Below are positions 7,438 to 21,563 of a DNA stretch of 64,000 nt, piece by piece (positions within the stretch are counted from its first letter, which is position 1; each line of letters begins with the position of its first letter). Origin of the DNA: Microterricola viridarii (GTDB lineage: Bacteria > Actinomycetota > Actinomycetes > Actinomycetales > Microbacteriaceae); contig NZ_LT629742.1 of NCBI RefSeq assembly GCF_900104895.1, positions 3,472,001-3,536,000 of the forward strand, given 5' to 3'. The translations under genes and the position numbers were made by a program. The notes beneath the pieces are model-generated. The model did not search any database. It was given only the letters and a program-made list of their open reading frames with translations, and was not told the origin of the DNA.

Positions 7438-7486
7438 TCGTTCGGGGCGCTGTCGCAGCCGGCATCCGCCCGCTCGTTGAGCCGCT

Positions 7487-8094
7487 CGAAACCCCGCTGG
7501 TCGAGTAGCGAGGAACGAGCGTGGCGAGACCCCGCACGAGACACAGCGCCCCACGAAAACCCGGTTCTCAACACGGCCCCGACGGGCCCACTCAACCGGC
7601 GGGATCTGCACGGCGGTGTTGGCTTCGGTCGCTGGCGCTCCCTCGAGCCAACGTGGTTAGGCACGGCGGTGTTGGCTTCGGTCGCTGGCGCTCCCTCGAG
7701 CCAACGTCGGTAGGCACGGCGGTGTTGGCTTCGGTCGCTGGCGCTCCCTCGAGCCAACGTGGTTGGGCACGCAGGTGTTGGCTTCGGTCGCTGGCGCTCC
7801 CTCGAGCCAACGTGGGGAGGCACGCAAGCTCGATGGGGCCGCGCCGCGACGAAGGAGCAGCGCAGCCCCCGAAGCCCCCGCGCCGACCCGAAACGGTCGC
7901 ACCGCTCCCGCCCGTTGCGCCCGCCGAAACCCCGCTGGTCGAGTAGCGAGGAACGAGCGTATCGAGACCCCGCACGAGACACAGCGCTCCGCACGAACCT
8001 GGTTCTCAATACGCCCCTGGATGGCCTCCTCGACCGGCGGGATCTGCACGCCGGTGTCGACTTCGGTCGCTGGCGCTCCCTCGAGCCAACGTGG
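7487..8094. repeat. Two 170-bp direct repeats built from REP-like palindromes
   Basis: Copies at 7487-7656 and 7925-8094 align along their whole 170-bp length with scattered substitutions. Each opens with a 33-bp palindromic core (7499-7531; 7937-7969) that begins GGTCGAGTAGCG and ends CGAGACC, and each closes with the GTTGGCT...AGCCAAC hairpin unit that is tandemly repeated at 7608-7819. Elements of this look are, as I recall, common between genes in Microbacteriaceae. Together with the tandem block they fill the gene-free stretch 7391-8110; frames through them only translate the repeat and are not genes. Confidence 0.85.
7608..7819. repeat. Four tandem copies of a 53-bp hairpin unit
   Basis: Units start at 7608, 7661, 7714 and 7767, exactly 53 bp apart, and are nearly identical. 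Each contains GTTGGCTTCGG and CTCGAGCCAAC, able to form a stem. A fifth start at 7820 decays at once, and one more diverged unit ends the second long repeat at 8046-8094. The array looks like recent tandem expansion of a REP-type element. Confidence 0.88.
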
Positions 8095-8110
8095 CGATGC
8101 GCGCCGGCGG

Positions 8111-10292: not shown

Positions 10293-11285
10293 CTACTCCC
10301 CCGGGTAGACGAGGCCGATCTCGGCGCGCACGGCGTCGAGGGTCTCCATGATCTGCACGATCTCCGACAGCGGCAGGCGCGGGTCGTTCAGCTCGCCGCG
10401 GGCCACGAGCTCCTCGAGCGCGACGGCCTGGTAGTGCTTGCCGCCGCCGTTTTGCTCGGTCGTGAACTCCTCGATGACGGCGCCTGCGGCATCCACCACC
10501 CGGAAGCTCGTCTGGGTGTACCAGACCCCGTCGATATCGATGCGGCCGTTCGTGCCGATGACGCTGGCGCGGTTCGGGCCCTGCACGTCGCTGGCGGAGA
10601 GAGTGGTGGCGATCGCCCCGGAGGCGTAGCGGAAGGTGGTGGCGATCTGCGCGTCGGCGCCGGTCGGCCGGAAGCTCGCGGTGGCCTGGATGCTCTCCGG
10701 CTGGCCGAACAGGGAGGAGGCGAAGGAGATCGGGTAGATGCCGAGGTCGAGCAGCGCGCCGCCGCCGAGTTCGAGGGCGTTCAGGCGGTGGGCGGGGTCG
10801 TCGGAGAGCTTCTGGGTGTGGTCGGCGATGAGGGTGCGCACCTCGCCGATCGTGCCGGCGTCGAGGATCTCGCGGATCCGCTGCATGTGCGGCAGGAAGC
10901 GCGTCCACATGGCCTCGAGCACGACGAGGCCCTGCGCCTCGGCCAGGGCCACGACCTCTCGGGCCTCCTCGGCGTTCAGGGCGAACGGCTTCTCGACGAG
11001 CACGTGCTTGCCGGCGTTCAGCGCCATGGTGGCGTGCTCGGCGTGGAACGGGTGCGGCGTCGCGATGTAGATGACGTCGACGTCCGGGTCGGCGACGAGC
11101 TCCTCGTAGCTGGCGTGCACGTTCGGGATGCCGAACTCGGCGGCGAACTGCGCCGCGCTCTCTGCACGCCGCGAACCGACTGCCTGCACCGTGATCCCGT
11201 TCGCAACCAAGTCGGAGGTCACCGCGTGAGCGATGCCACCGGTAGCGAGAATTCCCCAGCGCAGTGATGTCGTCGTTGTGTTCAC
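10293..11285 (-). CDS. Gfo/Idh/MocA-family oxidoreductase
   Basis: About 330 residues. The N-terminal Rossmann fold begins RWGILATGGIAHAVTSDL, and the hallmark EKP motif lies in HVLVEKPFALN. The C-terminal half is the mixed alpha/beta substrate domain, with GGGALLDLGIYPI close to the family catalytic region. Members oxidise or reduce sugars, inositols or dihydrodiols with NAD(P); the substrate is not predictable here. I start it at GTG 11285, since upstream codons in frame are non-conserved and a TATGCT element (11292-11297) sits 6 nt before this GTG, pointing to a leaderless mRNA. It is divergent from the IclR-linked catabolic cluster. Confidence 0.85.
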   Translation of the reverse strand: MNTTTTSLRWGILATGGIAHAVTSDLVANGITVQAVGSRRAESAAQFAAEFGIPNVHASYEELVADPDVDVIYIATPHPFHAEHATMALNAGKHVLVEKPFALNAEEAREVVALAEAQGLVVLEAMWTRFLPHMQRIREILDAGTIGEVRTLIADHTQKLSDDPAHRLNALELGGGALLDLGIYPISFASSLFGQPESIQATASFRPTGADAQIATTFRYASGAIATTLSASDVQGPNRASVIGTNGRIDIDGVWYTQTSFRVVDAAGAVIEEFTTEQNGGGKHYQAVALEELVARGELNDPRLPLSEIVQIMETLDAVRAEIGLVYPGE

Positions 11286-11355: not shown

Positions 11356-11390
11356 CGGAAGCTCGTTCCGGCAGGCGGAACAGGCTTCCG
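11356..11390. promoter_or_regulatory. Phased TTCCG/CGGAA operator array, site 1
   Basis: Four pentamers alternate in orientation with exact 5-bp spacers: CGGAA (11356), TTCCG (11366), CGGAA (11376) and TTCCG (11386), one per helical turn. The same pattern occurs at 15484-15518 before the permease gene. The array ends 10 bp before the predicted -35 of the downstream operon, a position suited to an activator. The IclR-family protein encoded between the two sites is the likely ligand, as IclR proteins bind as dimers or tetramers to inverted repeats. Confidence 0.7.
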
Positions 11391-11400
11391 CCTGCTGGCG

Positions 11401-11429
11401 TTGTCCGCTCCAGGCACCGAATCTAGTCT
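11401..11429 (+). promoter_or_regulatory. Promoter of the PaaH-like dehydrogenase operon
   Basis: TTGTCC (11401-11406), a 17-bp spacer and TAGTCT (11424-11429) make a good SigA-type promoter. It predicts a start near 11436 and a leader of about 30 nt carrying AGGAGAGG. Confidence 0.6.
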
Positions 11430-11464
11430 GGAGATCGGCCCCAAGCGGGGCCAGGAGAGGCTGG

Positions 11465-12961
11465 GTGCACCACATGATCGTAGGCGTTGTCGGCGCGGGT
11501 GCCATGGGGCGCGGAATCGCGCAGGTCTCGGCCGCCGCCGGACACGACGTCGTGCTCTTCGACAGCAACGCGGATGCCGTCACCTCCGGCCTGGACGCGA
11601 TCTCCGCGAGCCTGGGCCGGGCCGCCGAACGCGGCCGCATCACTGCGGACGCCGCGGCGGCAACGGTGGCGCGCATCTCCGGCGTCGACGCGATCGAGCG
11701 GCTTGCCGGTGCCGAGCTGGTGATCGAGGCGATCGTCGAACGGCTCGACGTCAAGCGCTCGGTCTTCGCCCAACTCGAGGCAGTCGTCGGCCCGGACACG
11801 ATTCTCGCCAGCAACACCTCCTCGCTCTCCATCGCTTCCATCGCAAGCGCGGTGCAGCGGCGGACGCGATTGATCGGCCTGCACTTTTTCAACCCCGTCC
11901 CGGCCATGGCGCTTGTGGAGGTGGTCGGCACCCCGTACAGCGCCGACGCCGTGCTCGAGCGCGCCAAGGCCTGGGTCGCCGGGATCGGCAAGACGGCGGT
12001 CGTCGTGCGCGACTCCCCCGGGTTCCTGGTGAACCTGGCCGGCCGCGCCTACGCGACCGAGGCGCTCGCCATCCTGCAAGACGGCATCGCCAGCGTCGAG
12101 CAGATCGACCGCATCGCCACCGCGAACCTGGGCTTCCCGCTGGGCCCGTTCGAGTTGATGGACCTCACCGGGCTGGACATCAACTACACCGTCACCGCCA
12201 ACCTGTACGAGCACAACTTCGGTGACCCACGGTTGCGCTCCACCTGGTACCACCGCTACCTCTTCGACGCCGGCCTGCTCGGCCGGAAGACGGGCAGGGG
12301 TTTCCACGATTATGCGGGGCCGGACGCCACAGCCGAGCAGCCGGCGCCGACTGCTGTCAGCAGCGTCCGCGCGATCGGCGTCGCCCTGGCCGGCGACAAC
12401 CGTGAGGCGCTCTCCTCCCTCTGCGCGCGGGCGGGCATCCCGGTGGTCGCGGCAAACGAGGCCGATCTGGTGCTGATCGCGCCCTGGGGATCCGACGCCT
12501 CCGCAAGCGCCGCCCGTTTGGGGCTCGACCCTCTGCGCACCGTCGCCCTCGACCTGCTCGTCGCCGAGCCGTCCGTGCACACCGTGATGGTCCCGCCCGG
12601 TGTGGACGCCGAGGCGGTCCACGCTCTCGCCGAGCGGCTTCGCGGCATCGGCGGCGTCGAGGTGATCCGGGACTCGCCCGGCTTTATCGCCCAACGGCTG
12701 CTGGCCGCCATCGTGAATCTGGCCGCGGACGTCGCCCAGCGCGGCATCGCCTCCCCTGGCGACATCGACACCGCCGTCACCCTCGGCCTTCGCTACCCGC
12801 ACGGGCCGCTGGAGTGGGCCGACCGCGTCGGCCTCCACACCATCACCGCGATCCTGGCCGGCATGCACGAGACCACGGCCGACCAGCGGTACACGACGAG
12901 CGCCTGGTTGCGCCGTCGGGCAAACGCCGGGCTCTCGGCGCTCACCCCAGACTTCTCCTGA
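11465..12961 (+). CDS. 3-hydroxyacyl-CoA dehydrogenase, PaaH-like with duplicated C-terminal domain
   Basis: About 498 residues. The NAD-binding domain starts VGVVGAGAMGRGIAQ, with catalytic-site segments SNTSSLSI and GLHFFNPVPAM. The first C-terminal domain follows RDSPGFLVNLAGRAY; a linker of about 100 residues leads to a second copy beginning RDSPGFIAQRLLAAIVN. This two-tail architecture is that of PaaH/PaaC-type dehydrogenases, which oxidise 3-hydroxyacyl-CoAs in aromatic and beta-oxidation pathways. GTG 11465 is chosen because AGGAGAGG (11452-11459) lies 5 nt upstream; ATG 11474 lies 14 nt away. It opens an operon with two crotonases and is convergent with the IclR gene. Confidence 0.88.
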   Translation: MHHMIVGVVGAGAMGRGIAQVSAAAGHDVVLFDSNADAVTSGLDAISASLGRAAERGRITADAAAATVARISGVDAIERLAGAELVIEAIVERLDVKRSVFAQLEAVVGPDTILASNTSSLSIASIASAVQRRTRLIGLHFFNPVPAMALVEVVGTPYSADAVLERAKAWVAGIGKTAVVVRDSPGFLVNLAGRAYATEALAILQDGIASVEQIDRIATANLGFPLGPFELMDLTGLDINYTVTANLYEHNFGDPRLRSTWYHRYLFDAGLLGRKTGRGFHDYAGPDATAEQPAPTAVSSVRAIGVALAGDNREALSSLCARAGIPVVAANEADLVLIAPWGSDASASAARLGLDPLRTVALDLLVAEPSVHTVMVPPGVDAEAVHALAERLRGIGGVEVIRDSPGFIAQRLLAAIVNLAADVAQRGIASPGDIDTAVTLGLRYPHGPLEWADRVGLHTITAILAGMHETTADQRYTTSAWLRRRANAGLSALTPDFS

Positions 12962-12976
12962 ACCACCCCGACTCTG

Positions 12977-13016
12977 CCACCACACCACACCACACCGCAC
13001 CGCACCGCGCTGCACC
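12977..13016. repeat. Pentanucleotide repeat before the first crotonase gene
   Basis: Successive ACACC units (three) and then GCACC units (two, plus degenerate copies) fill most of the gap between the dehydrogenase and crotonase genes. The block sits just before the AAAGGGA ribosome-binding site. Length changes would alter operon spacing but no reading frame. Confidence 0.6.
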
Positions 13017-13033
13017 AAATGAAAGGGACAGCG

Positions 13034-13843
13034 ATGTCTGCCTACGACTCCTACGAATACCTCCTCACCGACATGGTGGAGGACGGCATCCTGCGCGTGA
13101 CAATGCACAGTCCCGGGCGGCTGAATGCCGCGCACGCCGGCATGCACACCGAGCTCGCGAAGATCTGGCGTGACATCGACGCTGACCCGGACGTCAATGT
13201 CGTCATCCTCACCGGTTCCGACGGTGCGTTCTCGGCCGGCGGCGATCTGGAGCTGGTCAAAGACATGTCGGAGAACTTCGACACACTGACCCGGGTGTGG
13301 AAGGAAGCCCGCGACCTCGTCTACGGCGTCATCAACTGCGAGAAGCCGATCATCTCCGCCATGGAGGGCCCCGCCGTCGGTGCCGGGTTGGCCGCCGGGC
13401 TGCTCGCCGACATCTCGATCGCCGCCAAGGACGCCCGCATCATTGACGGCCACACCCGCCTCGGCGTCGCCGCCGGCGACCACGCCGCCATCATCTGGCC
13501 CTTGCTCTGCGGCATGGCCAAGGCCAAGTATCACCTGATGCTCTGCGAGTCGGTCACCGGCGAGGAGGCGGAGCGAATGGGTCTCGTCTCGCTCTGCGTC
13601 GAGCAGGACCAGGTGCAGGAGAAGGCCCTCGAGGTCGCCCGCAAGCTCAACCGCGGGTCCAAGACGGCGCTGCGCTGGACCAAGTACTCCCTGAACAACT
13701 GGCTGCGCATGGCCGGCCCCACCTTCGACGCCTCGCTCGCCCTCGAGTTCATGGGCTTCAACGGCCCCGACGTGCGCGAGGGCCGCGCCTCGCTGGTCGA
13801 GAAGCGGCGCCCGCAATTCGGTGCGGCAGCTGAGACGCGCTAG
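13034..13843 (+). CDS. Crotonase-superfamily protein lacking both hydratase glutamates
   Basis: 269 residues with the crotonase fold. The oxyanion-hole regions are clear ([12 protein letters not shown] and [13 protein letters not shown]). The two glutamates used by enoyl-CoA hydratases are absent: the GGGxEL motif reads GAGLAAG, and the QPE segment reads DGHTRLG. It probably catalyses another reaction on an acyl-CoA (isomerisation, hydrolysis or decarboxylation), which I cannot specify. The start at 13034 is set by GAAAGGGA at 13021-13028. It lies between the PaaH-like dehydrogenase and a canonical hydratase, 3 bp before the latter's start, in one operon. Confidence 0.85.
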
Positions 13844-13846
13844 GCC

Positions 13847-14668
13847 ATGACGAGCCCCGATGGCGCGCCCGGCGCGCCCGCAACCGAGGACGAGGCGCTC
13901 GACCAGGTGCTGGTAGAACGGCCAGCGCCCGGCGTGGTGCTGGTGCGGCTCAACCGGCCCGAGGCGCGCAATGCGCTCTCGATGCCGCTGCGCCGACGAC
14001 TCGCCGCCGTGTTCTGGGAACTGGAGGAGGACGCCACCGTGCGAGCTGTCGTGCTCACCGGGGCCGGGCGCTCCTTCGCCTCCGGTGCCGACATCAACAG
14101 CATGATCGGCGTCTCCGGCGTGGAGATGTACCAGCGGCATACGGAACGTCTGTGGGCCGCCGTCGGCCGCTTCTCGCGCCCTGTCATCGCCGCCCTCAAC
14201 GGCCACGCGCTCGGCGGCGGGCTCGAGCTCGCGATGAACGCCGACATCATCATCGCTGGGGAGAGCGTCACCCTCGGCCAGCCCGAGGTACGACTCGGCA
14301 TCCTGCCCGGCGCCGGGGGCACGCAGCGCCTGCTCCGCGCCGTCGGCAAGTTCCACGCAATGCGCCTCTGCCTGACCGGCGAGCTGATCAGCGCCCGCGA
14401 AGGCTACGACATCGGACTAGTCTCGCGACTCGTTGCCGACTCGGATGTCGAGGATGCCGCGATCGAGATGGCGACGGGCATCGCAGCCCTGCCCGGCATC
14501 GCCGTCGAGCAGATCAAGGAGGTGCTCCAACTGGGCGCCGACGCCTCGCTCGAGACCGCGATGGCGCTGGAGCGCAAAGCCCTGCACATCCTGTTCTCCA
14601 CCCACGACAAGGAAGAGGGCCTGCGCGCCTTCACCGAGAAGCGGCAGCCGCAGTTCCGCGGGGAGTGA
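13847..14668 (+). CDS. Enoyl-CoA hydratase
   Basis: 273 residues of the crotonase family with both catalytic glutamates: GHALGGGLELAMNAD and GQPEVRLGILPGAGGTQRL. The oxyanion hole is formed by RSFASGADI. It hydrates 2-enoyl-CoA to 3-hydroxyacyl-CoA, feeding the dehydrogenase encoded two genes upstream. It begins 3 bp after the previous stop, and the gene pair is likely co-translated. About 25 extra N-terminal residues (PDGAPGAPATEDEAL) are non-conserved. The operon appears to end here at a small hairpin facing the IclR gene. Confidence 0.9.
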   Translation: MTSPDGAPGAPATEDEALDQVLVERPAPGVVLVRLNRPEARNALSMPLRRRLAAVFWELEEDATVRAVVLTGAGRSFASGADINSMIGVSGVEMYQRHTERLWAAVGRFSRPVIAALNGHALGGGLELAMNADIIIAGESVTLGQPEVRLGILPGAGGTQRLLRAVGKFHAMRLCLTGELISAREGYDIGLVSRLVADSDVEDAAIEMATGIAALPGIAVEQIKEVLQLGADASLETAMALERKALHILFSTHDKEEGLRAFTEKRQPQFRGE

Positions 14669-14674
14669 CCGGGA

Positions 14675-14691
14675 GGCGTCCCACGGACGCC
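14675..14691. terminator. Short hairpin between convergent genes
   Basis: GGCGTCC and GGACGCC pair around a 3-nt loop between the hydratase and the IclR gene. The 7-bp stem without a T-tract is weak, but it is the only candidate in this 35-bp gap. Confidence 0.4.
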
Positions 14692-14703
14692 CGAGGCGGC
14701 GGA

Positions 14704-15438
14704 TCAGTCGGAGAGCTCGTCCGCCGTTTCCCGGAGCATCTCGGAGAGCTCGCCGGCGACGTCGGTCTCGGCGAGCTCGTCAGTACGCGCGATCAGGCTG
14801 AGCGCGTACAGCTCGCCTCCAGCGCGGAACGCGGTCGCCACGCCGCCGACATCCGAGTGCCAGCCGCCGAGGCTCACGTATACCGGTTTCTCGGGCTCGG
14901 CCAGGCGGCGCTCGAAGTCCTCGACCGGCTGGCCGCGACGCTGCAGGTCGGCGTAGATGGCGTTCGTCACGCGCGAGCGGGTCGGTTCGTGCGTCGCGCG
15001 CAGGAACGCGACGCCGGCGGCCGACATCGAGATCGGCAGGCGCCCGCCGACAGCAAGCGGCACGGCACGCGCCTTGCGCGGCCGGCGAATCGCGAGAAAG
15101 GACATGTGCAGGTCGTCCCGCACGGCGAGCGCCGCGGTCATCCCGGCCGCATCGCCCAGCCGGTCGACTGCCTGCTGGGCTCGGCCGGCGATGGGCATGT
15201 TCGCCAACACCGGGTAGCCGAGCCGGAGGTTTTTCGGCGTGAGCATGTAGGCGCCGGATTCCGGGCTCACCCGCAGGTAGCCGAGCTGCACCAGGCTGTC
15301 GGTCAACCGCGAGATCGTCGACGGCGGCAGACCGGTCGCGCGGGACAGCTGGCCGTTGCCCATCGAGCCGCTCGCGCTCGACAGAACCTCGAGGACTCGC
15401 AGGCCCCGAGCGAGCGCTTCGATCGGTTGGCCAGCCAT
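14704..15438 (-). CDS. IclR-family transcriptional regulator
   Basis: 244 residues. An N-terminal winged helix (residues ~5-65; ARGLRVLEVLSSASGSMGNGQLSRATGLPPSTISRL-type region) precedes the GAF-like effector domain (AGMTAALAVRDDLHMSF, SAAGVAFLRATHE). It lies between two catabolic transcription units whose promoters share the phased TTCCG/CGGAA array, so it is the probable regulator of both; the array position upstream of -35 suggests activation. The inducer is likely the imported acid or its CoA ester. A TAGGAT element (15445-15450) is 6 nt before the ATG, so its own mRNA is probably leaderless and its promoter lies close to the second array. Confidence 0.9.
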   Translation of the reverse strand: MAGQPIEALARGLRVLEVLSSASGSMGNGQLSRATGLPPSTISRLTDSLVQLGYLRVSPESGAYMLTPKNLRLGYPVLANMPIAGRAQQAVDRLGDAAGMTAALAVRDDLHMSFLAIRRPRKARAVPLAVGGRLPISMSAAGVAFLRATHEPTRSRVTNAIYADLQRRGQPVEDFERRLAEPEKPVYVSLGGWHSDVGGVATAFRAGGELYALSLIARTDELAETDVAGELSEMLRETADELSD

Positions 15439-15483
15439 TCTGCCATCCTACCGACAGGCCGCCGTGCGGCCGGCGGGCGACCG

Positions 15484-15518
15484 TTCCGGCAGGCGGAAAG
15501 GGCTTCCGGCAAACGGCT
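15484..15518. promoter_or_regulatory. Phased TTCCG/CGGAA operator array, site 2
   Basis: TTCCG (15484), CGGAA (15494), TTCCG (15504) and a partial CGG (15514) alternate with 5-bp spacers, as at 11356-11390. The first spacer (GCAGG) is the same in both sites. The array abuts the predicted -35 (TTGGAG, 15518-15523; -10 TAGTGT, 15542-15547) of the permease operon and lies about 30 bp from the IclR promoter, so autoregulation is also possible. Confidence 0.68.
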
Positions 15519-15547
15519 TGGAGCGGTGCAAATCCCCCGGATAGTGT
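15518..15547 (+). promoter_or_regulatory. Promoter of the permease operon
   Basis: TTGGAG (15518-15523) and TAGTGT (15542-15547) are spaced by 18 bp directly after operator array 2. The arrangement mirrors the promoter at 11401-11429. Confidence 0.5.
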
Positions 15548-15615: not shown

Positions 15616-17022
15616 ATGTCAACGATGACAAGACAGCGAGTGAAAACGTCGGCTTCGGAGAGGGTCGCCAGCTGGTACGCCCGTTACTTCCCCGACTCAC
15701 TCATCTTCGCGCTCGTGCTCACCGTGGTCGCCATGGCGCTGGCCCTCATCTTCACGGACTCCGGCCCCGGCGATGTGCTGGACGCCTGGTTCGTCGGCAT
15801 CCCGATGCTCTTCACGTTCGCCTTCCAACTCGCCTTCACCTATGCGGCCGCGCTCGTGCTCGTGGACACCCCCAAGGTGCAGCAGGGCATCAAGTGGGCC
15901 GCCAGCAAGATCACCCGCCCGCAGACCGCCTACATCGCGACCGGCGTGCTCGGCGCGCTGACCTCCTTCATCGGCTGGTACATCGGCCCAGTGGTGACGG
16001 CCATCTTCGCCCGGGCCATCGCCAAGGAGATGAAGAACGTCGACTACCGGCTCATCTCGGCCATCGCGTACTCCTCGTTCGTCATCTCCCTGACAGGAAT
16101 CTCCGGCACCATCCCGCTGTTCGTCGCTTCCGAGGGCCCGCTCACCGAGACCATCGGCGGGCTCATCGGCCTGGAAGACACAACGTTCTCGGTGATGAAC
16201 CTCGTCTCGGCGGCAGCCATCGTCATCGCGACCACCGTCACCTTCTACTTCATCGCCCGCAACAAGAAGGAGATCGTCTCCTTCGCCGACCTCGCCGTGT
16301 CCGGCGGCGTCCCGGCCTCGGCTGAGGCCGGCGGCAGCGAAGGTGAGGGCGACGACTCGCTCGGCGGCAGCAACACCTTCGCCGACCGGGTCAACAAGAG
16401 CCGGATCCCGATCCTCACGATCGGCCTGCTCGGCCTCGGCTACCTCGTCTACTTCTTCGCGCAGAACGGCCTGGCCGGCCTCAACCTGAACACGGTGGCC
16501 TTCATCGCCCTCGTCATCGGATTCCTCGCGCAGAAGAATGCGGTCGCCTATGCGGCATCCTTCGCCCGCAACCTGGTGTCGACGGGCTCGATCATGCTGC
16601 AGTTCCCGATCTACGGCGGCATCGCCTCCATCTTCGCGGCGACCGGTCTGGCCGGCGTCCTGACCGACGGCCTCGTCAGCGTCGCCACCCCGGAGACCTA
16701 CCTGACGATCACCTTCCTGATCACCGGCGTGCTCAACCTGTTCGTGCCGTCGGCGGGCTCGCAGTTCGTCGCCACCGCGCCATTCCTCATTCCCGGCGGC
16801 GAGGCCTTCGGCATCGACAACACACTCACGGTCATGGCCATCACATACGGCGACATCTGGACCAACCTGATCCAGCCGTTCTGGGCCCTGCTCTACTTCC
16901 CCATCCTCGCCGTCGGCACCAAGCTGCGCGTGCGCGACTTCATGGGGTACTGCCTGCCCATCCTCATCATCGTCGGAATCATCTGGATCCTGGCGCTGAA
17001 CTTCCTCCCGCTGCACCTGTAG
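15616..17022 (+). CDS. AtoE-family short-chain fatty-acid permease
   Basis: About 468 residues and some 11-12 membrane segments, matching the AtoE/SCFA transporter family: ASWYARYFPDSLIFALVLT at the start, GWYIGPVVTAIFA, and the conserved C-terminal GVLNLFVPSAGSQFVATAPF and DIWTNLIQPFWALL. A charged Gly/Glu-rich loop (EAGGSEGEGDDS, around residue 245) separates the halves. Family members import butyrate-like acids. ATG 15616 is chosen for GGAG at 15605-15608. It is the first gene of the second operon and precedes the ligase that would activate the imported acid. Confidence 0.88.
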   Translation: MSTMTRQRVKTSASERVASWYARYFPDSLIFALVLTVVAMALALIFTDSGPGDVLDAWFVGIPMLFTFAFQLAFTYAAALVLVDTPKVQQGIKWAASKITRPQTAYIATGVLGALTSFIGWYIGPVVTAIFARAIAKEMKNVDYRLISAIAYSSFVISLTGISGTIPLFVASEGPLTETIGGLIGLEDTTFSVMNLVSAAAIVIATTVTFYFIARNKKEIVSFADLAVSGGVPASAEAGGSEGEGDDSLGGSNTFADRVNKSRIPILTIGLLGLGYLVYFFAQNGLAGLNLNTVAFIALVIGFLAQKNAVAYAASFARNLVSTGSIMLQFPIYGGIASIFAATGLAGVLTDGLVSVATPETYLTITFLITGVLNLFVPSAGSQFVATAPFLIPGGEAFGIDNTLTVMAITYGDIWTNLIQPFWALLYFPILAVGTKLRVRDFMGYCLPILIIVGIIWILALNFLPLHL

Positions 17023-17078: not shown

Positions 17079-18509
17079 ATGAGCACTCGAACAATGCGCG
17101 AACAGACCCGTCCCCCCTACTACCACGAGAGCATGGACTGGGACCGGCTCACCGCCGAGTACGAGCCGCCGTTCGAGTTCATGACCGGGGCTCGGCTGTG
17201 GTCGCCCGAACGCATCGCCGAGGAGCAGCTCCGCCGGCTGCGCGGCGCCGTCGAGCGGGCGGCCAGCGTGCCGTTCTACCGGCGTCTGTGGGCCGAGCAC
17301 GGCTTCTCGCCCGCAGACATCACCTCGCTCGACGACCTGCGCCGCATGCCGAGCTACACCATCGACGACATCCGCGACAGCATCGAGCGCCAGCCGCCGC
17401 TGGGCGACTACCAGGGGGTCGGTTTCGCGGACGCCGCGCACACCCCGCTGCGCATCTACACCTCGGGCGGCACCACCGGCACGCCCAGGCCGACGATCTA
17501 CACGCAGTGGGACCGCGAGGTCGGGGCGATCCTTTCCGCCCGCACCTTCTACATGCAGGGCATCCGGCCCGGCGACGCCGTGATCAACGCCTGGGCTTAC
17601 TCCACCCACAACGCGGCCTGGATCATGGACCACGCGCTCTGGCATTGGCTGGGCGCAATCCCCATCACCACGAGCACCGGCAACGTGACGCCGACCGAGA
17701 AGCAAATCGAGTTCGCCCAGCTCTACGGCGCGGCGTCCATCACCGCCACCTCGGACTACCTGCTGCACATCGCTGACACCGCTCGCCGCATGGGCCTGGA
17801 CCCGCGGACGGACTTCGATTTCAAGACGATTCTCTCCTTCGGCGATACCGCCGCCGTCGAGGAGGCCTTCGGTGTGCCCACCTACGACTCCTACGCCTTC
17901 CACGAGGTGCAGTACCTCGCCGCGGAGTGTGAGGCGAAGGACGGCCTGCACATCTTCGAGGACGCCTTCATCATCGAGATCGTCGACTTCGAGACGGGCG
18001 AGGCGCTGCCCCCGGGGCACAAGGGCAACATCGTCGTCACAGCGCTCTACAAGACCGGCACCTCGCAGTTGCGCTACAACATCCAGGACATCTCGGCCAG
18101 CTACGAGCTCAGCCAGTGCTCCTGCGGCAGCTGGCACAAGAAGCTGGACTACTTCCAGGGCCGCAGCGACACTATGGTGAAATTGCGCGGAGTCAACGTC
18201 TGGCCCGAGGCCTGCGGCAAGATCGTCGCCGGCCACCCCGGGGTCACCGGCGAGTATTACTGCTACGCGGAGCGCGTCGCCCCAGAGGGCAAGGTCGCCC
18301 GCGACGAGATGACGATCATGGTCGAGAAGGCCGACGGCACCGGCGACTCCGCTGTGCTGCGGGCCGAGCTCGCCGCCCTGCTCAAGCAGAAGACGGGCGT
18401 CGCCATCGGCGTCGAGCTCGTCGAGCGCGACGGACTGCGCGAGCTCACGGGGCACGGCCACCGGGCCAAGCTCAAACGCTTCGAGGACCGGCGGGAGGCC
18501 GGCCGATGA
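17079..18509 (+). CDS. Phenylacetate-CoA ligase-like acyl-CoA ligase
   Basis: 476 residues of the PaaK branch of adenylate-forming enzymes. The ATP-binding loop reads YTSGGTTGTPRPTIYT, a second core motif lies near DSYAFHEVQYLAAEC, and the hinge region is FQGRSDTMVKLRGVNVWPEA. A CSCG pair resembles the cysteines of PaaK enzymes. The C-terminal lysine is probably in GHGHRAKLKRF. It should ligate CoA to the acid brought in by the adjacent permease; the divergence from true PaaK leaves the acid open. It overlaps the next gene by ATGA. Confidence 0.85.
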   Translation: MSTRTMREQTRPPYYHESMDWDRLTAEYEPPFEFMTGARLWSPERIAEEQLRRLRGAVERAASVPFYRRLWAEHGFSPADITSLDDLRRMPSYTIDDIRDSIERQPPLGDYQGVGFADAAHTPLRIYTSGGTTGTPRPTIYTQWDREVGAILSARTFYMQGIRPGDAVINAWAYSTHNAAWIMDHALWHWLGAIPITTSTGNVTPTEKQIEFAQLYGAASITATSDYLLHIADTARRMGLDPRTDFDFKTILSFGDTAAVEEAFGVPTYDSYAFHEVQYLAAECEAKDGLHIFEDAFIIEIVDFETGEALPPGHKGNIVVTALYKTGTSQLRYNIQDISASYELSQCSCGSWHKKLDYFQGRSDTMVKLRGVNVWPEACGKIVAGHPGVTGEYYCYAERVAPEGKVARDEMTIMVEKADGTGDSAVLRAELAALLKQKTGVAIGVELVERDGLRELTGHGHRAKLKRFEDRREAGR

Positions 18510-19561
18510 GGGCCCAGGTGCAAGAGCAGCACAGCAGCCCGCTCGTCGCCCGCGATCGGCCCTCCCCGATCGCGGGGCCCGGCGAGGTCGTCCTGCGCGT
18601 CGTCGCGGCCGGCCTCAACCACCTCGACCTGTGGTTGCAGCAGGGCGACACCGGCGACGCCCTGAGCCTGCCCCGGGTGCCCGGCAGCGATGTGCTCGGC
18701 GACGTCACGGCCGTCGGCGACGGTGTCTCCGACGCGCTCCTCGGCGAGCGAGTCATCCTCTACCCAGGCCGCGCCTGCGGCAGCTGCGCCTTCTGCACCG
18801 AGGGCAGCCTCTCCGCCTGCCGGCAATTCGAGATCCTCGGCTACAACTACGACGGCGGCTACGCCCAGGAGATCGCGGTCGCGGCCGACGCCGTCGTGCC
18901 CGTCGGCGCGGACGCCTCGCTCGCGTGGGCGGCCGTGCCGGTGTCCTACATCACCGCGTGGAACGCGCTCGTGCGCACGGGCGGCATCGCGCGCGGCGAC
19001 GTCGTCGCCATCTGGGGCGCCAGCGGCGGTCTCGGCAACGCGGCGCTGCGCATCGCGAGCGCGCTCGGGGCTCGCGTGGTTGCAATCGTCGGCTCGGCGG
19101 AGAAAGCGCTCTGGCTCGCGGCCACGGGCTTCGACGGCGACGTGCTGGTGCGCGGGGACGACCTGGTGAAGCGCGTCCGCGCCGTGACTGGGGGGCGCGG
19201 CGTCGACCTCGTGCTCGATCATGTGGGCGCGGCCACGTGGAATGACAGCCTGCGCATGCTCTCCGTCCGCGGGCACCTGGCCTTCTGCGGCGTCACGACC
19301 GGGCACAGCGTGCAGACCGACCTGCGCCAGGTGTTCGGCAAGCAGCTGACCATCGCCGGCAGCTGGATCGGCGACCCGGCAGACCTGATGGCCGTGGTCG
19401 AGTTGCTGCGCGCCCACCCGGACGCGCTGCCGGTCATCCAGAATAGTTTCACCCTCGACAATGCCGTCGCCGCTCAGGAGGCTATCGCCGACTCCGCGGG
19501 CAACGGCAAGACGATCCTGCGCTGTGTCGAGGCCAGCACCGTACAAGGAGAAGACAGATGA
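18506..19561 (+). CDS. Zinc-type MDR alcohol dehydrogenase/quinone reductase
   Basis: About 351 residues of the medium-chain dehydrogenase family. The structural zinc lobe has four cysteines in ACGSCAFCTEGSLSAC, the substrate side shows AAGLNHLDLW and VPGSDVLGDV, and the NAD(P) fold has IWGASGGLGNAAL. It probably reduces or oxidises a C=C or C-OH group in a CoA pathway intermediate, but its substrate is unknown. The start is firm: ATG overlaps the ligase stop (ATGA), with GGGAGG at 18493-18498. It overlaps the thiolase the same way, so four genes form one tightly coupled operon. Confidence 0.87.
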   Translation: MRAQVQEQHSSPLVARDRPSPIAGPGEVVLRVVAAGLNHLDLWLQQGDTGDALSLPRVPGSDVLGDVTAVGDGVSDALLGERVILYPGRACGSCAFCTEGSLSACRQFEILGYNYDGGYAQEIAVAADAVVPVGADASLAWAAVPVSYITAWNALVRTGGIARGDVVAIWGASGGLGNAALRIASALGARVVAIVGSAEKALWLAATGFDGDVLVRGDDLVKRVRAVTGGRGVDLVLDHVGAATWNDSLRMLSVRGHLAFCGVTTGHSVQTDLRQVFGKQLTIAGSWIGDPADLMAVVELLRAHPDALPVIQNSFTLDNAVAAQEAIADSAGNGKTILRCVEASTVQGEDR

Positions 19562-20778
19562 CCGAGGCCTTCCTCGTCGGCGGGGCCCGCACCCCAGTCG
19601 GCCGCTACGGCGGCTCCCTGAGCTCGGTCCGCCCCGACGACCTCGCTGCCATCACCATGCGGGCCGCCGTCGAACGGGCCGGCATCGACCCGGCCGACGT
19701 CGACGAGGTGATCTTCGGGAATGCGAACGGCGCGGGCGAGGAGAACCGCAACGTCGCCCGGCTGGCTTGGCTGCTCGCCGGCTTCCCCGACACCGTCCCC
19801 GGGATCACGGTCAACCGGCTGTGCGCCTCCGGCATGAGCGCCATCACCATGGCGAGTCACATGATCAAGGCGGGTGCGGCCGACCTCGTCGTCGCCGGCG
19901 GCGTCGAGTCGATGTCGCGCGCACCGTGGGTGTTGGAGAAGCCAGCTAAGGCCTTCTCTGGCCCCGGCGCGAGCTTCGACACGTCGATCGGCTGGCGCTT
20001 CACGAACCCGGCCTTCCTCTCCGGCGAGCTCTCCCGCGACGGCAAGATGGTGTACTCCATGCCTGAGACTGCCGAGGAGGTCGCCCGCGTCTACGGCACC
20101 AGCCGGACGGACTGCGACGCCTTTGCAGTGCGCTCGCATGAGCGCGCCCTCGCGGCGATCGCTGCCGGCCACTTCGCAGAGGAGATCGTGCCGGTCAGCG
20201 TAGCCCAACGCCGCGGCGCGGCCGTGCTCATCGACACGGACGAGGGTCCGCGCTCCGGCACCAGCCTCGACGTACTCGCGGAACTCCGCCCCGTGGTGCG
20301 CGGGGGAACCGTCGTGACCGCGGGCAACGCCTCCACTCTCAACGACGGGGCCTCTGCCATCGTCGTCGCCTCGGAACGCGCGATCGAGCGCTACGGACTC
20401 ACTCCGCGCGCGCGGATCCTCGATGGCGCCGCCGCCGGCCTCGCGCCCGAGATCATGGGAGTCGGCCCGGTGCCGGCAACCCGCAAGGTGCTCGAGCGCC
20501 AGGGGCGCGGCATCGACGAGCTCGCGGCCGTCGAGCTCAACGAGGCCTTCGCCTCGCAGTCGCTGGCCTGCATGCGCGAGCTCGGTCTCGACGCCGAGAT
20601 CACAAACCGCGACGGCGGCGCGATCGCGCTCGGCCACCCGCTCGGCTCCTCCGGCGCACGCATCGTGATCAGCCTGTTGGGGCGCCTCGAACGCGAGGCC
20701 GCCGCGGGCGACCTCGGACTGGCCACGATGTGCGTCGGCGTCGGGCAGGGCACCGCCCTGCTGATCGAGCGGGTGTGA
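19558..20778 (+). CDS. Acetyl-CoA C-acyltransferase (thiolase)
   Basis: 406 residues with all thiolase catalytic residues: the nucleophilic cysteine in NRLCASGMSAI (residue ~90), the histidine in GGAIALGHPLGSSGARI, and the C-terminal cysteine in TMCVGVGQGTALL. It cleaves a 3-oxoacyl-CoA with CoA to acetyl-CoA and a shortened acyl-CoA, the last step after the PaaH-like dehydrogenase of the partner operon. ATGA overlap with the upstream dehydrogenase and GTGA contact with the next crotonase show translational coupling. AAGGAGAAGA just upstream is a good ribosome-binding site. Confidence 0.93.
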   Translation: MTEAFLVGGARTPVGRYGGSLSSVRPDDLAAITMRAAVERAGIDPADVDEVIFGNANGAGEENRNVARLAWLLAGFPDTVPGITVNRLCASGMSAITMASHMIKAGAADLVVAGGVESMSRAPWVLEKPAKAFSGPGASFDTSIGWRFTNPAFLSGELSRDGKMVYSMPETAEEVARVYGTSRTDCDAFAVRSHERALAAIAAGHFAEEIVPVSVAQRRGAAVLIDTDEGPRSGTSLDVLAELRPVVRGGTVVTAGNASTLNDGASAIVVASERAIERYGLTPRARILDGAAAGLAPEIMGVGPVPATRKVLERQGRGIDELAAVELNEAFASQSLACMRELGLDAEITNRDGGAIALGHPLGSSGARIVISLLGRLEREAAAGDLGLATMCVGVGQGTALLIERV

Positions 20779-20780
20779 AC

Positions 20781-21563
20781 ATGGCCAGCCGCGGCGCCCC
20801 GCCATTCTCAACGCTGCGCGTCACAGATCGCGACGACCACCTCGAGGTGCGGCTGCACCGCCCCGCCGTGCGCAACGCCATCGACCAGGCGATGGTCGAT
20901 GAGCTGCTCCGGGTCTGCGCCGAGCTCGAGGCGCGCCCGCGGATCCTCGTCATCGCTGGCACGCCCGGCGACCCGGCGACGGGTGCCCGCGGCGTCTTCG
21001 CCTCCGGGGCCGACATCGCCCAGCTGCGCGAGCGGCGTCGGGACGATGCCCTGGCCGGCATCAACTCCGGCGTCTTCGACCGGATCGCCAAACTGCCGAT
21101 GCCCGTCATCGCAGTGCTCGACGGGCACGCCCTCGGCGGCGGGGCCGAGCTCGCCTACGCAGCCGACTTCCGCATCGGCACCCCAGAGGTGCGCCTCGGC
21201 AACCCGGAGACGGGGCTCGGCATCATGGCGGCGGCCGGGGCGACGTGGCGACTCAAAGAGCTCGTCGGCGAGTCCGTCGCGAAGCAGATCATCCTCGCCG
21301 GCCGCGTGCTGAGCGGCGAGGAGTGCCTCGCCGTCGGCCTGCTCAGCGAGCTGCGACCGGCCGCAGAGCTCGTCGCGGCGACATCGGCCCTCGTCGCCCG
21401 CATCGCCGCCCAAGACCCGCTCGCGGTGCGGCTGTCCAAGTCGGTGTTCCACACGCCACGCGAGGCACACCCGGTGATCGACACGCTGGCCCAGGCCGTG
21501 CTGTTCGAGTCCGAGGCAAAATTCGAGCGGATGCAGGCGTTCCTCGACCGCAAGAGCAAGTGA
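20781..21563 (+). CDS. Enoyl-CoA hydratase/isomerase
   Basis: About 260 residues of the crotonase family, with both glutamates in place (GHALGGGAELAYAAD and GNPETGLGIM) and an oxyanion loop at GVFASGADI. It is the third crotonase of the locus and the last gene of the permease operon. Start options are GTG 20775, overlapping the thiolase stop, and ATG 20781, which I chose. Three crotonases with different active sites suggest a pathway with branching or double-bond rearrangement rather than plain fatty-acid oxidation. Confidence 0.88.
   Translation: MASRGAPPFSTLRVTDRDDHLEVRLHRPAVRNAIDQAMVDELLRVCAELEARPRILVIAGTPGDPATGARGVFASGADIAQLRERRRDDALAGINSGVFDRIAKLPMPVIAVLDGHALGGGAELAYAADFRIGTPEVRLGNPETGLGIMAAAGATWRLKELVGESVAKQIILAGRVLSGEECLAVGLLSELRPAAELVAATSALVARIAAQDPLAVRLSKSVFHTPREAHPVIDTLAQAVLFESEAKFERMQAFLDRKSK

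Follow-up and report, generated by a model that had tools for sequence, protein, structure and literature searches.

Transcriptional regulators of the IclR family include repressors, activators and dual regulators, and the comparative study by Suvorova and Gelfand (2021; PMC8222616) distinguishes two types of binding motif for them, group 1 with the consensus GKTYCRYW3-4RYGRAMC and group 2 with TGRAACAN1-2TGTTYCA. In the same study, three-box sites of alternating direction, in which both motif types are combined, were predicted for 32 orthologous groups (199 regulators); PcaU, PobR and HmgR are listed as earlier cases, and the binding of PcaU needs the third box (PMC8222616). Tandem sites 18–22 nt apart, which fit tetramers, were recorded in 94 groups, and two pairing modes of IclR proteins were proposed and left to experiment (PMC8222616). 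Here we describe two arrays of alternating TTCCG and CGGAA boxes, each upstream of one of the two gene runs that flank an IclR-family gene, in a 64,000-nucleotide stretch of the Microterricola viridarii genome (assembly GCF_900104895.1, contig NZ_LT629742.1, positions 3,472,001–3,536,000 of the forward strand; hereafter the window, to which the coordinates refer unless a contig is named). Judged from sequence comparison, each array is probably an operator of the linked IclR-family protein, and we put the probability of this at roughly 0.85. The elements concerned are as follows.

11356..11360, strand not assigned: fourth, most upstream box (CGGAA) of operator 1, exact in the source genome only
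11366..11390, plus strand: conserved three-box core of predicted operator 1, TTCCG-N5-CGGAA-N5-TTCCG, upstream of the dehydrogenase/hydratase run; kept in the Mycetocola miduiensis (L001) and L027 stretches
11401..11429, plus strand: predicted promoter-like pair TTGTCC-17-TAGTCT at operator 1; same offsets in both other species, 7 of 12 consensus positions
14704..15438, minus strand: IclR-family regulator, the proposed operator-binding protein (Pfam HTH_IclR 1.6e-15, IclR_C 1.7e-9)
15445..15450, minus strand: candidate -10 element of iclR (TAGGAT), 6 bp ahead of the ATG, with no good -35 element
15484..15508, plus strand: three-box core of predicted operator 2, TTCCG-N5-CGGAA-N5-TTCCG, between iclR and the transporter run; kept in the M. 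miduiensis (L001) and L027 stretches
15518..15547, plus strand: predicted promoter-like pair TTGGAG-18-TAGTGT at operator 2; offsets within 1 bp in both other species, 6 of 12 consensus positions

The array at operator 1 reads CGGAA-gctcg-TTCCG-gcagg-CGGAA-caggc-TTCCG (11356–11390), four exact boxes in 10-bp steps, and that at operator 2 reads TTCCG-gcagg-CGGAA-agggc-TTCCG (15484–15508), three exact boxes in the same steps. A preliminary description of this DNA had reported four boxes at the first site and three and a half at the second, all with exact 5-bp spacers; the seven full boxes and their spacing stand, while the "half" box (15514–15518) is CGGCT, with three of five matches to CGGAA. 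The register upstream of operator 2, at 15474, is CGGGC and also matches at three of five positions. Both inverted pairs are far more frequent in the window than in shuffled sequence: CGGAA-N5-TTCCG occurs three times (shuffle mean 0.08) and TTCCG-N5-CGGAA twice (shuffle mean 0.07), none of 100 shuffles reaching either count. All these copies fall within the two arrays, and spacers of 0 to 30 other than 5 gave at most one match for either pair in the window. Throughout the 3.84-Mb single-contig genome, TTCCG-N5-CGGAA is found at three places, two of them in the arrays, and CGGAA-N5-TTCCG at eight, three of them in the arrays; the exact three-box pattern is confined to these two operators, the chance expectation being 0.007 per genome at the composition of the window. 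When up to three mismatches to the three-box motif were allowed, the genome gave 38 forward and 38 reverse sites (reversed control, 23 and 10), and, if the two arrays and the registers overlapping them are set aside, two mismatches are reached at just two sites, contig positions 520450 and 3753973. The same scan of the M. miduiensis genome gave 56 and 86 sites against 16 and 22 for the reversed control, with eight sites at two mismatches among the matches listed. As a separate observation, an identical 25-mer with three mismatches to the motif is present at six contig positions (796476, 1384453, 2989893, 3004805, 3273584 and 3396851) as a dispersed repeat; M. miduiensis has two near copies of it, one of them 209 bases from a contig start.

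The gene cluster, the regulator and both arrays have been kept together in other species. A search for related loci yielded one relative, M. miduiensis (G200), in which the IclR protein is 80% identical, the gene order is the same and exact three-box cores stand at both places. Searches with the IclR protein covered 199 genomes of the family (E<=1e-30), where only the genome of origin was matched, M. miduiensis not being in that draw, and 396 genomes of the order (E<=1e-35), where two further homologues were found: G1045, from another family of the same order (67% identity), and G863 (49%). G1045 has the cluster and again carries exact three-box cores at both places, so that the paired arrays are present in 2/2 further species with the orthologous cluster. 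In both M. miduiensis and G1045 nine of the ten query proteins were matched in the same layout, the exception being an oxidoreductase (10293–11285). Among the 396 order genomes (apparently the same draw in the protein and the pattern search), the paired arrays occur in two, which are the two whose IclR homologue is at least 67% identical, and are absent from the remaining 394, four of which have a single exact three-box site. The link between shared arrays, IclR gene and catabolic cluster that had been suggested from one sequence, together with the conservation check proposed for it, is thus borne out wherever the cluster was found.

When the six operators from the three species are aligned, every one of the 15 box columns is invariant; none of the 10 spacer columns and none of the 40 upstream columns is, and downstream the count is 2 of 45. 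Pairwise comparisons made operator by operator give 15/15 for the boxes in all six, from 2/10 to 7/10 for the spacers, from 11/40 to 20/40 for the upstream flanks and from 8/45 to 21/45 for the downstream ones. The conserved unit is three boxes. The fourth box (11356) and the "half" box (15514) were also considered as conserved parts and were rejected on the register counts in the other species: the fourth register of operator 1 is AAACA in M. miduiensis and TCCAG in G1045 (1/5 each), and the 15514 register matches at 0/5 and 1/5. At operator 2 the fourth register matches at 3/5 in the window, 2/5 in M. miduiensis and 4/5 in G1045.

Compared with the sites described for the family, these arrays have the same three alternating boxes and the same position upstream of an adjacent operon (PMC8222616). 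Their upstream pair, TTCCG-N5-CGGAA, has the layout of group 1 and their downstream pair, CGGAA-N5-TTCCG, that of group 2; when compared by eye, box letters and spacing agree with the consensuses, and the fit is not full, for the boxes here are TTCCG/CGGAA and the spacers are G+C-rich where the published ones are W-rich (PMC8222616). The boxes alternate at fixed spacing in 6/6 operators, lie beside the regulator and its target operon and are conserved with both. As box sequence, spacing and arrangement fit, spacers aside, we regard the arrays as a further case of the known three-box type. With the operators of PcaU, PobR and HmgR, which serve IclR regulators of aromatic acid catabolism, they have in common a palindrome with an extra half-site; with the PcaU motif, GTTCG-ATWAT-CGMAC, they share 5-bp boxes and a 5-bp spacer, the box letters being different (PMC8222616). 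The closest letters are those of GenR of Corynebacterium glutamicum, likewise actinobacterial, with the site ATTCC-N7(5)-GGAAT: with N7, TTCC-N7-GGAA equals TTCCG-N5-CGGAA, whereas GenR has two boxes as listed and belongs to gentisate genes (PMC8222616). Among the literature matches listed, and judged by title, there was no operator of this exact motif and no work on three-box sites later than that study (PMC8222616).

The regulator itself is a clear member of the IclR family (PF09339, 57 bits with a cut-off of 22; PF01614, 37.9 bits with a cut-off of 24). Its best NCBIfam match is the PcaR/PcaU/PobR model TIGR02431 (7.5e-22), and membership in that subfamily was rejected, since the score of 77.9 bits is far under the cut-off of 284.75. 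A sequence search of the Protein Data Bank returned distant IclR relatives only, the best being 5whm (8.5e-28).

All six operators are ordered TTCCG-CGGAA-TTCCG towards the catabolic run, and in all six a TTG stands 9 or 10 bp past the array and a TAG at offset 33 or 34, the two hexamers being 17 or 18 bp apart. In the window the gap from array to TTG is 10 bp at operator 1 and 9 bp at operator 2, in agreement with the earlier statement that each array lies 0–10 bp before a -35 element, though the pairs match only 7 and 6 of the 12 consensus positions. In spite of their weak scores we judge these promoter-like pairs likely, because their offset from the array is shared. If transcription started about 7 bp past the -10 element, near 11436 and 15554, the three-box core would span about -46 to -70. 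A site just upstream of the -35 element that does not overlap the promoter is usual for an activator and unusual for a simple repressor. On these sequence grounds we consider it fairly likely that the linked IclR protein activates rather than represses both operons. In the proposed arrangement, the conserved three-box core would lie on one face of the helix and end 9–10 bp before the -35-like element of the catabolic operon; an IclR dimer would occupy one pair of boxes, the third box leaving room for another subunit or for an alternative mode of pairing; and, on binding the substrate or its CoA-ester, the protein would activate both operons, standing beside RNA polymerase. Operator 2 faces the divergent iclR gene and, as it is only 45 bp from the iclR start, would probably set iclR expression as well (autoregulation). 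The TAGGAT 6 bp before the ATG suggests a nearly leaderless iclR message. In M. miduiensis a TAGCAT stands 7 bp before the GTG of iclR.

The best of the alternatives, which we regard as possible and clearly less likely than activation, is that the same IclR protein works as a repressor (or as a dual regulator) and is released when the ligand binds, like IclR of Escherichia coli. The family includes such proteins, and the downstream pair CGGAA-N5-TTCCG equals the TGGAA-N5-TTCCA of the E. coli site, TGGAAATNATTTCCA, except for the outer bases, so that the GGAA/TTCC geometry is common to both (PMC8222616). The E. coli protein differs in being the repressor of the glyoxylate bypass and in the A+T-rich centre of its site. 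Against repression, the core ends 9–10 bp before the -35-like element in 6/6 operators, with no overlap with the presumed promoter.

Several results weigh against assigning the arrays to the linked regulator or against reading it as an activator. The position just upstream of the -35 element suggests activation without proving it; the promoter pairs are weak in all six operators (6 or 7 of 12 sigma-70 consensus positions), a free scan found pairs scoring equally or higher elsewhere in several of them, and the pair at operator 1 of G1045 is absent from the four listed by that scan. The orthologues are few, amounting to three clusters, and relatives of the same genus have neither this IclR protein at E<=1e-30 (three searched) nor the array (four searched). 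In addition, the source genome has 29 HTH_IclR matches at E<=1e-3, some of which probably belong to other helix-turn-helix families. The exact three-box pattern was also sought in 398 genomes of the family, 396 of the phylum and 396 of the order (1155 distinct genomes, shared ones counted once) and was found in 18, the reversed control being found in two, both from the phylum set. IclR genes within 1.5 kb of the arrays were sought with a hidden Markov model built from three IclR proteins, and a site covered by a frame of at least 249 codons was judged to be inside a gene. Thirteen of the 15 arrays outside the three orthologous clusters have no IclR match within that distance, and eight of these 13 sites were judged to be inside genes. 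For this reason the motif alone is no proof of control by an IclR protein.

Across the same 1155 genomes, a pair of operators spaced about 4 kb apart is limited to the source genome, M. miduiensis and G1045, which are those with the cluster. The exact pattern by itself is a weak marker of IclR genes; paired, conserved and promoter-linked arrays are strong evidence. The two outside sites with an IclR gene within 1.5 kb are those of G348 and G466, where the IclR sequence is clearly different; these two count in favour of the arrays being IclR operators. A wider stretch was examined for G348, G069, G097, G437 and G466 alone. The exact array of G348 (L012, 8004–8028) lies between the different-sequence IclR gene and a divergent ABC transporter-like run and is an independent use of the same site type. 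In G069 the array stands ahead of a gene run in which an IclR gene follows after about 4.4 kb; that run also holds what is presumably a dihydroorotate dehydrogenase-like gene. The IclR gene of G437 is about 6 kb from its exact array. As a side observation, G069 has, before an ABC transporter-like run, a two-box array and, 186 bp from it, a three-box array (L013, 7849–7863 and 8035–8059).

It is also possible, to a lesser degree than repression, that the four-box array of operator 1 holds two tandem dimers, a tetramer or perhaps a longer subunit chain. The preliminary description had presented this array as exceeding IclR sites as known and had raised the prospect of a tetramer or a filament. 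The first part does not hold, as three alternating boxes with a 10-bp step are already published, and the four exact boxes at 11356–11390 equal two tandem palindromes 20 bp apart, within the range of 18–22 nt that is common for tandem IclR sites and fits tetramers (PMC8222616). A longer assembly is favoured further by the fourth register at operator 2 of G1045 (4/5) and by five phased boxes, CAGAA-TTCCG-TGGAA-TTCTG-CGGAA, in G863 (L028, 8346–8390; 3 mismatches in 25, expected 3e-6 in the stretch). The latter array, which also speaks for a link between such boxes and IclR genes, lies downstream of the 49% homologue, between its IclR gene and one for a dehydrogenase-like protein, and is longer and more degenerate than those of the window; the catabolic cluster was not found within 17.5 kb around that homologue. 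Against such an assembly, conservation covers three boxes only: in both other species the fourth box matches at 1/5 at operator 1, and at operator 2 its register gives 3/5 in the window and 2/5 in M. miduiensis. As the fourth box is not conserved at operator 1, nothing favours a filament, the G863 array apart.

More speculative is a ligand-driven switch, in which a dimer would sit on one pair of boxes in the unliganded state and, once the ligand is bound, would move to the other pair or add it, turning on both operons. The strict conservation of three boxes, their polarity and the distance to the -35 element would then follow from the shifting of the dimer between pairings, and the longer arrays, with four boxes here and five degenerate ones in G863, would be extended forms. 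The ligand-driven shift is the new part of this proposal, the two pairing modes having been put forward already (PMC8222616).

That the arrays serve as binding sites for a different regulator of the genome, the link with iclR being mere neighbourhood, we hold to be improbable. Further IclR-type proteins are encoded in the genome, and in M. miduiensis a gene for what we take to be a GntR-like protein ends 50 bp from operator 1. Against this, iclR has kept both arrays beside it in three species, and the oxidoreductase next to operator 1 of the window is unmatched in the stretches from M. miduiensis and G1045. The boxes also agree with the consensus of the IclR family (PMC8222616). Chance, or a repeated element with no regulatory role, is very improbable in spite of the isolated exact sites within apparent genes of other genomes and the two matches of the reversed control, given invariant boxes with free spacers at two promoters in three species and an expectation of 0.007 per genome.

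Assignment of the arrays to the linked IclR protein provides a likely regulator and two predicted operators for a cluster of CoA-dependent acid degradation. It introduces no new kind of regulation and is a clean example of a site type already described for the family. The locus is also a compact, conserved test bed for the question whether dimers of IclR proteins can be arranged in two alternative ways on a three-box site. The six natural operators, in which the boxes are identical, the spacers vary freely and the promoter distance is nearly fixed, lend themselves to simple mutational tests.

The genes of the two runs, all on the plus strand, are as follows.

11474..12961, plus strand: 3-hydroxyacyl-CoA dehydrogenase, PaaH-like (Pfam PF02737/PF00725; cut-off passed for NCBIfam PRK08268, not for the PaaH model)
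13034..13843, plus strand: enoyl-CoA hydratase/isomerase, PRK07327 family (Pfam, NCBIfam)
13847..14668, plus strand: enoyl-CoA hydratase, PRK08138 subfamily (Pfam, NCBIfam)
15616..17022, plus strand: short-chain fatty acid transporter family protein (Pfam SCFA_trans 1.4e-91)
17079..18509, plus strand: PaaK-like acid-CoA ligase (NCBIfam PaaK models 1.7e-59 and 7e-53, both below cut-offs; Pfam AMP-binding_C_2)
18461..19561, plus strand: presumably an alcohol dehydrogenase/quinone reductase-like protein, named from its sequence (open reading frame 18116–19561, start placed by hand; homologues in both syntenic clusters)
19558..20778, plus strand: thiolase, 3-oxoadipyl-CoA thiolase-like (Pfam Thiolase_N/C; 3-oxoadipyl-CoA thiolase NCBIfam models best, below cut-offs)
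20730..21563, plus strand: enoyl-CoA hydratase/isomerase (Pfam ECH_1)

The run behind operator 1 consists of the dehydrogenase and two enoyl-CoA hydratases (11474–14668) and is followed by iclR on the opposite strand, and the run behind operator 2 continues rightward from the transporter through the ligase, the alcohol dehydrogenase-like protein and the thiolase to the last hydratase. From the gene spacing we infer that each run is one operon. The start of the transporter was set at 15616 by homology, homologues aligning from residue 12–13 of the longer open reading frame, whose listed start is 15580. Taken together, the cluster looks like a set of genes to import a carboxylic acid, activate it with CoA and degrade it by beta-oxidation; no named pathway was found for it.

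Elsewhere in the window, a tandem repeat with a 53-bp unit (4.1 copies, 93% matches) occupies 7608–7824, with a second part at 7907–8107, and a 201-bp stretch at 7469 is repeated at 7907 with 85% identity. The genes flanking the 53-bp repeat presumably encode a ring-cleavage dioxygenase-like and an isochorismatase-like protein.

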